A stretch of 35,274 bases of DNA from Alphaproteobacteria bacterium. GTDB taxonomy: Bacteria; Pseudomonadota; Alphaproteobacteria; Caulobacterales; Parvularculaceae. Under the pieces are notes generated by a model that searched no databases, was not told where the DNA came from, and worked only from the letters and a program-made list of their open reading frames with translations. Positions 25,032 through 34,965 of this stretch are shown here, one piece after another (the first letter of the stretch is position 1; each line of letters opens with the position of its first letter). The translations under genes were made by a program, and so were the position numbers. The DNA is taken from positions 1 through 35,274 of the forward strand of contig JAADIQ010000110.1 in NCBI GenBank assembly GCA_013151255.1, given 5' to 3'.

Positions 25032-25060
25032 TGGATGGTTCATATGTGCGACTTTACATC

Positions 25061-25678
25061 ATGTCAAGTGATGCGCCTGAAACCCGAACACGCATTTTGC
25101 AAACGACCTTGAACCTGCTGGAAGGCGGGACGGAGCGCGGCGTGCGCATGGCTGACATCGCCAAGCAGGCCGGGATCACGCGCCAGGCGCTCTATTTGCA
25201 TTTCAGTACAAGAGCTGAGTTGCTGATTGCCGCCACCCGCCATCTTGATGACCTCAAAGCCGCAAATGACAGGCTCATGCCGAGCCGGAAAGCCAAAAGC
25301 GGGGTTGAACGCCTCAACGCCTATATTGCAGCCTGGACGGCCTATCTCCCAGAAATCTATGGAACGGCAAAAGCGCTTCTGGCCATGAAAGATACCGACC
25401 AGGCGGCGGCGATCGCGTGGAACGAACGCATGCAGGACATGAAAGAGGGCTGCGAGGCTGCCATTAATGCATTGTCCGCAGACAAACGGCTGCTGCCCGA
25501 CTATACGCCCGATCAGGCTACGGACATTTTGTGGACGATGCTGTCGGTTAGAAACTGGGAACAGTTGACGCTTGAATGTGGCTGGTCGCAGGAGAAATAC
25601 ACCAACACTATATCGCGCATGGCGCACCGTCTGTTGGTATCAGATGAGGCGCGCGTTGAAGGGAATGCCCGCACCTAG
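25061..25678 (+). CDS. TetR-family regulator (205 aa)
   Basis: N-terminal TetR HTH: RILQTTLNLLEGGTERGVRMADIAKQAGITRQALYLHFSTRAELL. The rest is a helical ligand domain without named features. ATG 25061 (MSSDAPETRTRIL) is preferred over 25046, since the family usually starts about ten residues before the first helix; no strong ribosome site precedes either. It is divergent from the DUF1772/DUF4345 pair, with about 94 bases between starts and a palindrome in between, so it probably represses both directions. A 17-bp hairpin starts four bases after its stop. Confidence 0.9.
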   Translation: MSSDAPETRTRILQTTLNLLEGGTERGVRMADIAKQAGITRQALYLHFSTRAELLIAATRHLDDLKAANDRLMPSRKAKSGVERLNAYIAAWTAYLPEIYGTAKALLAMKDTDQAAAIAWNERMQDMKEGCEAAINALSADKRLLPDYTPDQATDILWTMLSVRNWEQLTLECGWSQEKYTNTISRMAHRLLVSDEARVEGNART

Positions 25679-25681
25679 CGC

Positions 25682-25945
25682 CTAGACCACCGGGCGATAA
25701 ATAAGAATCGCCCGGTGGTCTAGATTCTTTGTTACGCGCCGGCCCGCGCGCGAAGGCGCGCTGATAATGATCTGACCGCCTTCGCGGCCCGCGCGCGAAG
25801 GCGCGCTGGTAATGATCTGACCGCCTTCGCGGCCCGCGCGCGAAGGCGCGCTGGTAATGATCTGACCGCCTTCGCGGTCGGGGGCGAAAAACCGGCATCA
25901 TCCTGAGCTTGTCGAAGGGCCCACTTTTTCGCCCGGCGCTGTAAG
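25682..25945. repeat. Composite two-hairpin repeat (copy 3) carrying two insertions
   Basis: Hairpin 1: CTAGACCACCGGGCGAT (25682-25698) pairs perfectly with its complement at 25707-25723, followed by the linker ATTCTTTGTT. Hairpin 2 is split: left arm GCGCCGG (25736-25742), resumed as GGGCGAAAAACCGG (25882-25895); right arm TTTTTCGCCCGGCGC (25925-25939). The first break holds three 45-bp tandem units; the second holds CATCCTGAGCTTGTCGAAGG (25899-25918), a repeat found widely in Alphaproteobacteria. With the sequence up to 26045 this fills the 367-base gap after TetR; no gene is present. Confidence 0.7.
25741..25875. repeat. Three 45-bp tandem repeats
   Basis: Units start at 25741, 25786 and 25831; unit 1 differs at one base (CTGAT against CTGGT). 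Each unit contains GCGCGC-GAAG-GCGCGC, and also a longer 10-bp pairing of CGCGAAGGCG with CGCCTTCGCG, so two alternative hairpins are possible. The unit is 15 codons long, which creates a spurious open frame on the minus strand (25608-25901). Confidence 0.9.
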
Positions 25946-26045
25946 CAGGGTTTTCATTTTCCGATCCTTTGGGTTGCCTTCTGGGGCCATGCAGACATCC
26001 CCCTCAAACAATCTGCCAGATCGACGCCTCGATTGGGATACCCCC

Positions 26046-26915
26046 TCATGGCTCGAATGATTTGCCAATCTCATGCGTTTCAGGGGGCTCTAAACCCTCG
26101 CTAGAGTATTTCGCTTTGGGCAGGCGAAATAGAGGCCACCAGAGTTGTTGATGCCATTTGCTGTTATCTTCCGCGATAGTGCCGTATTTTTCAGGAACTT
26201 TATCACCCAGGAATGTCGCCGTTCCAAACAGTTGATCCCAGATAAACAGGGTTTGCGCGTAATTACCAAACGGCACGCCATTTTCGCCAAGGCCGTGATG
26301 TCCTCTGTGTAATGAAGGTGTGTTAAAGATGCGCTCTATACCCCTCATAACCGAGCGGATGCCCGGCATTCGGTATAGTTTCCTGTCCCATTCAAGGCCG
26401 TAATGGACGACAACATTATGCACGCCAATGACCATAGTAGAGACAATGACCACATTGCCTAACCCTAGATGGATCATCAGCCCCATCCACCAAAACCCCG
26501 GCATGAAGAACAGCCATGACCAGTTTTCCCGAAAGGCGATCGTCACCTGATATTGTTGCGGCGTATGATGGGTGCGGTGCATGGGCCACATCCAATCCCA
26601 CTGATGCGCCATGCGATGATACCAATAATGCATAAAATCATCTGGGATAAAGACAATTAAAAACGCCGCCCAAAATGGCAGACCTGCCAACGCGCCGTGA
26701 CCGGCGGGCCAGAAATAAGACGCTGCAGCAACAGATAAAAATAGTGCCGCCGGCTTTAATACAAGGGCCAGCTGGGCGAGGCTAACGAGGTCAATTATCC
26801 AGTCACGACCAAACCGGTTTTCACTCTTATAAAGGCCTAACAAAAACTCCAGCAGAGCCAGACCGGCAAACACGCCAGCAACGATTAGAGATGAATAAAT
26901 TTCATCAGCATGCAT
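26046..26915 (-). CDS. Sterol desaturase / fatty acid hydroxylase family protein (289 aa)
   Basis: A membrane di-iron oxygenase. Histidine boxes: HYWYHRMAH (96-104), HRTHH (113-117) and HRGHH (203-207), with several hydrophobic spans around them. The family hydroxylates or desaturates sterols, fatty acids, carotenoids or hopanoids; the substrate here is unknown. A 19-bp element upstream of the start (26950-26968) is nearly identical to one upstream of the neighbouring ArsR gene, so it is probably controlled by that regulator. Confidence 0.92.
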   Translation of the reverse strand: MHADEIYSSLIVAGVFAGLALLEFLLGLYKSENRFGRDWIIDLVSLAQLALVLKPAALFLSVAAASYFWPAGHGALAGLPFWAAFLIVFIPDDFMHYWYHRMAHQWDWMWPMHRTHHTPQQYQVTIAFRENWSWLFFMPGFWWMGLMIHLGLGNVVIVSTMVIGVHNVVVHYGLEWDRKLYRMPGIRSVMRGIERIFNTPSLHRGHHGLGENGVPFGNYAQTLFIWDQLFGTATFLGDKVPEKYGTIAEDNSKWHQQLWWPLFRLPKAKYSSEGLEPPETHEIGKSFEP

Positions 26916-34619: not shown

Positions 34620-34720
34620 TGGCCCGGCGCATTTCCGACCCGGCGCATTTTCGACCTGGCGCCCCCTTCTACCCGGCGTCTCCTCCGACCCGGCGCCTTT
34701 TCCGACTGGTGCGATCTTTC
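34620..34720. repeat. Imperfect 17-bp tandem array, six units
   Basis: Units begin at 34620, 34637, 34653, 34670, 34687 and 34704; all are 17 bases except the second, which is 16. Consensus is about GACCCGGCGCNTTTTCC. The units are degenerate, so the array is old or under little constraint. Rotated, the unit resembles CTTTTTCGCCCGGCGC, the right arm of hairpin 2 at 25924-25939. Confidence 0.7.
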
Positions 34721-34786
34721 GACAAACGCAGCGCGAGACGGCCCTGCGCCACAGTGAGACCGGTACGGATGAATACGGCCGCTTAG

Positions 34787-34809
34787 AGCGCCGGGCGAAA
34801 AAGCGGGCC
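34787..34809. repeat. Partial two-hairpin repeat (copy 5)
   Basis: AGCGCCGGGCGAAAAAGCGG at 34787-34806, continuing to GGCC, is the complement of GGCCCACTTTTTCGCCCGGCGCT at 25918-25940 with one change. Only one arm is present here, in opposite orientation to the 17-bp array upstream. Confidence 0.55.
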
Positions 34810-34965
34810 TTTTGACAGGGGCAGGGCGAGGCTGGTTTTCGGCTTCGCCGCCAAACTTACAGGTCGGATGCGGCGAGACAGCGCCGAATGTGACGACAAA
34901 CAAACGTGCGTAAAATCCGTATTGGTGCAATCCGATATGGCCAAAAAGAACAGGGAACAACGTCG

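Follow-up and report, generated by a model that had tools for sequence, protein, structure and literature searches.

The window, that is, the whole stretch of DNA analysed here, is the entire contig C102 (35,274 bp) of a 3.12-Mb assembly in 131 contigs (G000, here referred to as the own genome). Two convergent genes, whose names are readings of their sequences, stand on either side of a palindromic element that is a copy of a dispersed two-hairpin repeat, here called E105. In this copy the second hairpin carries two modules, namely a tandem array of a palindrome of about 50 bp (P50) and a short unit at its tip (CATC module). The features are as follows.

25046..25678, + strand: TetR-like regulator gene (open reading frame; name from a reading of the sequence)
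25682..25943, + strand: E105 copy with two hairpins, from TA to TA, with three P50 units and a CATC tip module
25682..25723, + strand: hairpin 1, with 17/17 arms and an 8-nt loop; the terminal repeat of E105 is formed by the left arm
25724..25735, + strand: conserved linker ATTCTTTGTTAC
25736..25742, + strand: left outer arm of hairpin 2, GCGCCGG
25743..25787, + strand: P50 unit 1, 45 bp
25788..25832, + strand: P50 unit 2, 45 bp
25833..25882, + strand: P50 unit 3 including the terminal GGTCGGG, 50 bp
25884..25891, + strand: left inner arm of hairpin 2, GCGAAAAA
25896..25921, + strand: CATC tip module CATCATCCTGAGCTTGTCGAAGGGCC, replacing TTTCC or similar
25925..25932, + strand: right inner arm of hairpin 2, TTTTTCGC
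25933..25939, + strand: right outer arm of hairpin 2, CCGGCGC
26046..26915, - strand: fatty-acid-hydroxylase-like gene, convergent with the TetR-like gene (open reading frame; name from a reading of the sequence)
34781..34839, - strand: degraded right half of a second E105 in the same window, with a CATC-like tip

Three nucleotides separate the stop codon of the TetR-like gene (25676-25678) from E105. The hydroxylase-like gene has a 97% identical relative in a Marinicaulis MAG, and two of the 27 relatives searched have it at E <= 1e-60; its closest relative (locus L106) has different neighbour genes, and TetR matches in the relatives reach at most 62% identity. No exact orthologue of the window junction was found among the relatives through these two neighbours, so the comparison of joined and split forms was made at other sites. 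A degenerate tandem repeat of 16-17 bp lies at 34623-34706, near the degraded E105 half.

The preliminary description spoke of a palindromic element split by a tandem array and a second repeat, and all of these pieces were confirmed, beyond chance. The arms of hairpin 1 are perfect over 17 bp (25682-25698 and 25707-25723), and this hairpin is followed by the linker, GCGCCGG, the array of three 45-bp repeats, GCGAAAAACCGG, the CATCCTGAGC unit and CACTTTTTCGCCCGGCGC. The array (score 269, span 25740-25877) has a spacing of 45/45, with one base different between copy 1 and copies 2 and 3, and CATCCTGAGCTTGTCGAAGG lies at 25899-25918 in the CATC region. When the array and the CATC unit are taken out, the halves rejoin, as had been proposed, into nested stems of GCGCCGG with CCGGCGC and of GCGAAAAA with TTTTTCGC, but the uninterrupted form is not exactly recreated, as it mostly has a 5-nt spacer and a TTTCC-like tip at these places. 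Single-strand folding gave z = -9.4 as DNA and -7.4 as RNA, each against 200 shuffles. The right arm TTTTTCGCCCGGCGC has 20 exact occurrences in the 3.12-Mb own genome and, at two mismatches or fewer, 96 matches versus 44 for the reversed pattern. In Rfam nothing reached the gathering score, and a Thr_leader match (36.9 bits, cut-off 55) was taken as chance.

Hairpin 2 is not an element of its own, as previously described; the two hairpins and their linker are a single dispersed element of 105 bp. Using window 25724-25950 as query, we obtained 52 matches in the own genome at E <= 10, and the copies of E105 appear as one unit of about 105 bp, running from CTAGAGCATCGGGCGATT... to ...CGCCCGGCGCTCTA(G). 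A search with the 105-bp consensus returned 13 uninterrupted copies in the own genome, of full or nearly full consensus length, which are the joined pieces that had been called for. The uninterrupted copy at C47:18824-18927 is identical to the window copy at element positions 2-61, hairpin-1 arms included, and both have the right end GCTGTA; the joined form of the window sub-lineage is thus present in the same genome. Uninterrupted copies mostly have a 5-nt spacer (GTTTT and variants) at the P50 slot and TTTCC or similar at the CATC slot. E105 matches are present in 21 of 40 genomes, the own one included (19 of the genus and two others). Homologues covering most of the element at 77-82% identity occur on five Hyphomicrobiales plasmid records (three Martelella, one Allorhizobium and one Agrobacterium), and three more records hold parts. 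At locus L069 (G000:C113, element 1501-1605) E105 seems to run straight on into another two-hairpin element, built on different stems, with one CTAG belonging to both.

E105 inserts as a whole unit, since its sites are found empty in relatives. We searched the joined flanks of five insertion sites against 28 genomes. For the C55:2438 site, a continuous match over the junction, of about the query length, was present in 23 of the 27 relatives, with the same element in G006 and an unreadable junction in the remaining three. The C120:11939 site reads CTAA when empty (in G020) and CTA[GAGCC...GGCGCT]TAG when filled, which is a clean TA duplication. The duplication is clean at this site only, and the other junctions are off by a few bases. 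The C55:18178 site is empty in G020, and G006 has there an E105 with two P50 units, 4 bp off and with one flank in common; at the C48:38051 site the element is present in G010, and G006 has an empty site; at the C67:7202 site G007 is without the element, in a noisy alignment. Among 34 copies, TA stands at the left end in 30 and right after the right arm in 25 by script, plus one by eye. TA ends together with a TA target duplication, clean at C120:11939, are the marks of an IS630-type MITE.

The ends of E105 are TAGAGCATCGGGCGATTAA and TAGAGCGCCGGGCGAAAAA, and E105-type ends resemble those of IS630 in two genomes, so that matching ends are present in the lineage. First, a G021 IS630 transposase gene is flanked by the TA-bounded inverted repeats TAGAGCATCGGACGGTCT / TAGCGCATCGGATGGTCA, which came from a search independent of E105. 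Second, a G010 IS630 transposase gene is flanked by TAGAGCATTTCC / TAGAGCGTTTCC (TAGAGCATTTCCGATTTA / TAGAGCGTTTCCGAGCTT), which were first spotted with an E105-based motif. Around the G019 transposase gene TA-bounded inverted repeats were looked for and none were found. By NCBIfam, the G021 protein is IS630 above the cut-off and two G010 fragments are IS630 below it. DDE_3 (IS630) matches occur in 4 of 28 genomes, far fewer than those with E105, and the own genome has none at E <= 1e-8; many of the assemblies are fragmented, and insertion sequences may therefore be hidden in them. Judged from these ends, an IS630-family transposase that recognises ends like TAGAGC(AT/GC)CGGGCGA most likely moves E105 in trans, which we regard as a good lead rather than proof. 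A CTAGAGCG end in G017 was also spotted with the E105-based motif, in a copy near a contig end.

The array unit of the window, P50, is palindromic, with a length of about 50 bp and the sequence CCCGCGCGCGAAGGCGCGC...GACCGCCTTCGCGGTCGGG. Its pattern was found in 26 of 28 genomes, with reversed controls of 0 in 25 genomes and 1 in three, and in low-count genomes a few matches may be chance. We compiled a curated set of 86 P50 sites (27 in G000, 35 in G010 and 24 in G017), with host labels assigned by eye; it draws on 35 of the 36 sites matched in G010 (C85 left out) and 24 of the 32 in G017. Places were taken from among the matches listed, those of G020, G006, G014 and G021 being left out. Three weak reverse-strand matches of counted units and one single-unit match in L162 were dropped; L165 was missed by the P50 profile, L159 holds two sites, and the E105 label of L010 was based on the right half alone. 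The sites of G020 and G007 came via E105, and they stand outside the host fractions and inside the nearest-neighbour test described below.

The curated sites can be divided into two types. First, 73 of the 86 lie inside other palindromic repeats, at fixed slots, the hosts being E105 (35), an E105-type family with other stems in G017 (8), CTCCCCC (10), GTCATCCCG (8), TCATTCCGGC (6) and GCCTGCGCGG (6). Second, 13 stand alone. The fetched loci also contain hairpins without an insert: 19 of the CTCCCCC/TTCCCCC type, nine of the CATYCCGGC type and one of the GTCATCCCG type. Multi-unit arrays numbered 22 in five genomes, 14 of them in E105-type elements, seven alone and one in TCATTCCGGC; the longest, at a contig start (L190), has seven profile matches. 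In E105a, arrays of 1, 2, 3, 4 and 6 units occur, together with copies that have none. Arrays stand at contig ends in the G017 contigs C3, C9, C22 and C28, and array lengths in these assemblies may therefore be wrong. L162 and L165 (G010) and L187 (G000:C47) contain GCGCGAAGGCGC(G/A)C repeats that resemble P50 except in their second half; these may represent a separate repeat family. A second E105-type family, with arms GGGCGTTTC/GGAAACGCCC, has P50 in the equivalent slot (G017 loci L191, L193, L201 and L207-L211).

P50 variants follow their host family. In a nearest-neighbour test, with alone-standing sites left out and the two E105 families merged, the closest P50 relative came from a host of the same family at 62.9 of 72 sites within genomes, where 500 label shuffles averaged 35.2 and reached 45.4 at most. 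Between genomes the count was 45.1 of 73, against a shuffle mean of 24.9 and a maximum of 35.5. By family, the link between genomes was 33.9/44 for E105, 6.7/10 for CTCCCCC, 3.2/6 for GCCTGCGCGG, 1.3/6 for TCATTCCGGC and 0/7 for GTCATCCCG. As the variants track the host family overall, most copies seem to be inherited with the host; on this comparison there seem to have been few entries of P50, followed by spread of the composites, with separate entries possible in some hosts. The earlier suggestion that the hairpin arm is a preferred target therefore holds in part: P50 occupies a constant slot and its hosts include several unrelated palindromes, but the variants cluster by host family. The proposed check, a search for uninterrupted copies at the orthologous site, came out in favour at a site different from that of the window, where the flanks match and E105 is with P50 in G007:C44 and without it in G000:C31. 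The hairpin-1 arms differ there too, so the two states may also reflect gene conversion, or a further insertion into that TA.

The fetched loci, most of which were obtained through E105, P50 or CATC, contain 12 distinct CATC-type units (11 flagged by script, L179 by eye), and each of them sits in the hairpin-2 tip of an E105-type element. The CATCCTGAGC unit is not generally dispersed here: its 20-mer has three own-genome matches at one mismatch or fewer, all in E105-type tips, and weaker 15-mer matches to the CATC unit lie at C27 and C115 of the own genome. CATC occurs with P50 in the window and at C13, and without P50 at C110, in an E105-type element with other stems. In the own genome there are copies with neither module, with P50 only and with both, plus the one with CATC only at C110. 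Because all four combinations exist, the window copy alone gives no order of the insertion events, and the relative order first read from it was abandoned. Two G017 loci (L198 and L206) have other small palindromes, GTTTGGCGGCGAAGCCGCCAAAC and CCCCGACTTTCGTCGGGG, at or near the tip of E105 hairpin 2.

We hold it to be quite probable that the window contains a composite non-autonomous mobile element, with E105 as a chassis moved by IS630, plug-in modules, and P50 that entered a few times and was then carried by its hosts. The chassis, a two-hairpin repeat of 105 bp that is probably of the CIR/Bru-RS/RIME kind, enters TA as one unit. Its second hairpin holds optional modules at two fixed places, with P50 next to the inner stem and CATC in or close to the tip. 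A small number of events would have brought P50 into E105-type elements and into several further palindromic repeats, after which composites with P50 would mostly have spread along with their hosts. Dispersion, insertion of the whole unit, presence and absence of a module at one shared site, P50 variants linked to the host and covariation are observed here, and the IS630 transposase, slippage and the way in which the modules entered are inferred. Local multiplication into tandem arrays may have come about by slippage, and compensatory change would keep both hairpins. In the window, a copy of the C47:18824 sub-lineage presumably gained three P50 units and CATC, either because these inserted there or through recombination with a composite copy.

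Alternatively, the modules may not be insertions, and a long form with P50 would be ancestral, the uninterrupted copies having arisen by deletion or gene conversion. P50 occupies the same E105 slot in five genomes (G000, G010, G017, G020 and G007) and is found in the differently stemmed G017 family as well, which fits an old common part, as do variants that follow the host. However, P50 also stands alone at 13 of the 86 sites and lies in four other palindromic repeats, three of which occur as uninterrupted hairpins in the fetched loci. Moreover, the 5-nt spacer in the slot of uninterrupted E105 is not what a simple deletion would leave, and three plasmid homologues (two Martelella and one Allorhizobium), found with an uninterrupted query, are without P50. 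We consider this explanation rather unlikely.

It is also doubtful that P50 acts as an independent plug-in palindrome, entering the tips and arms of other palindromes and thereby becoming common to several unrelated repeats of the genus. It would then spread with no transposase of its own, perhaps being copied where cruciforms or hairpins are extruded as the DNA replicates. A search for Y1_Tnp in 28 genomes gave no transposase for P50. Flank-duplex energy was rejected as proof of P50 targeting, most host classes being indistinct from controls: 8 of the 90 sites scored fell below the 5% control quantile, namely 5/8 in GTCATCCCG, 1/10 in CTCCCCC, 1/6 in GCCTGCGCGG and 1/12 of those alone, with none in E105a (41), E105b (7) and TCATTCCGGC (6). 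Exact complementary runs of at least 6 were present at 15 of 80 P50 sites versus 191 of 6540 random controls, a weak difference in which related copies were counted separately.

Still less do we favour P50 as a mobile REP-like hairpin moved by a RAYT/Y1 transposase, with palindrome tips and arms as preferred targets. The six host classes (two E105-type and four other), each with P50 at a constant position in a palindrome arm or tip, the two-hairpin design of the unit and the weak between-genome host link of two host families would all suit such an origin. Nevertheless, six of the 28 genomes have Y1_Tnp, by which REP/RAYT systems were judged, and the own genome, G014 and G021, all of which are P50-rich, are not among them; six loci around the Y1 genes found hold no P50 core; and overall the variants follow the host family both within and between genomes. 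A RAYT origin of P50 thus found no support from the distribution of Y1 or from the Y1-gene loci, and was rejected. Finally, chance, or mis-assembly of GC-rich palindromic DNA into an array, is hardly credible even for a 131-contig source in which, as for the G017 arrays at contig ends, array length may be wrong, since 26 of 28 genomes show the pattern against reversed controls of 0 or 1 and flanks align between genomes.

E105 is probably of the CIR/Bru-RS/RIME kind, and the closest known systems also include RUP, BOX and Correia. CIR repeats of Caulobacter, present also in Brucella, are described in a 2007 review as about 110 bp long, with two inverted-repeat arms, a linker, TA termini and GANTC, and the review states that more information is needed on their mobility mechanism (PMC2229807). 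By description these alphaproteobacterial repeats are nearest to E105, which has two inverted-repeat arms and a linker in a consensus of 105 bp, with covariation mostly in hairpin 1; it differs from them in its optional plug-in modules and IS630-like ends. In CIR, GANTC is expected at or near the terminal loop of one stem; among 34 copies of E105, 17 have it close to the hairpin-1 loop, 26 where the linker starts and 15 at both places, with a window average of 0.82 per kb. Bru-RS1 is given as a 103-bp palindromic repeat and putative IS711 insertion site, with TA duplicated at YTAR by new IS711 copies (PMC3163539), and the RIME repeat is mentioned in PMC2573895. Again by description, Bru-RS1 is similar to E105 in size and palindromic nature, and the E105 homologues on Hyphomicrobiales plasmids (77-82%) may be RIME; the plasmid gene table consulted lists no repeats.

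The same TA/IS630 model applies to RUP of Streptococcus pneumoniae, for which a length of 107 bp, TA targets, IS630-type ends and IS630-Spn1 as proposed mover are given (PMC2229807, PMC3049150); RUP is described as simple, unlike the modular E105 with its two distinct hairpins. BOX of S. pneumoniae is modular, with a variable number of inner boxB modules (PMC3049150). E105 likewise has fixed ends around variable inner modules (0, 1, 2, 3, 4 and 6 P50 units), a likeness by description, and P50 is in addition common to other repeat families. The boxB module is about 45 bp long. Correia/NEMIS elements of Neisseria come in two lengths, a short one of about 107 bp and, where an internal sequence of 50 bp is present, a long one of about 155 bp (PMC2229807), a pair that resembles E105 without and with one P50; their insert has an IHF site, whereas P50 is a palindrome and forms tandem arrays. 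In the literature searched we found no description of E105 or P50 and no occurrence of the string TTCGACAAGCTCAGG, and the search for nested palindromic elements returned only unrelated work. RIME, Rhizob-, IS630, Brucella and nested are absent from the main text of a 2024 MITE review (PMC10969869). The empty sites, one of them with a clean TA duplication, together with the IS630-like ends offer a direct test of how CIR-type alphaproteobacterial repeats move. Empty, plain and P50-bearing states at shared sites within one genus would allow the assembly of mosaic palindromes to be timed, and P50 is a case of one small palindrome serving as a part for several repeat families.

The stems of E105 are conserved by matched changes. 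In 34 uninterrupted copies (31 from the genus and three from plasmids), 94.2% of cells pair and 16 of the 35 pairs are changed on both sides, 12 of these 16 in hairpin 1. Double-changed cells numbered 50, compared with a shuffle mean of 11.9 and 10 or fewer in slid-partner controls. At the orthologous site G020:C22/G000:C107, hairpin 1 has matched changes and the second hairpin is identical. Either selection on structure or arm-to-arm correction could account for this conservation. We think E105 most likely a selfish element that tolerates plug-in hairpins and is varied by them, and a putative role in transcription termination or mRNA stability is possible.

Around the copies of E105, 7 gene arrangements are convergent, 9 are in the same direction and 4 are divergent, with no strong bias. 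The stop codon of a neighbouring open reading frame (chosen by length) coincides with or overlaps the end of E105 in 7 of 20 own-genome copies; such an overlap would permit harmless landing there. The stop-codon overlaps in G000 are at L014, L069, L074, L077, L082, L085 and L087, and at the L077 site both convergent open reading frames terminate at E105.
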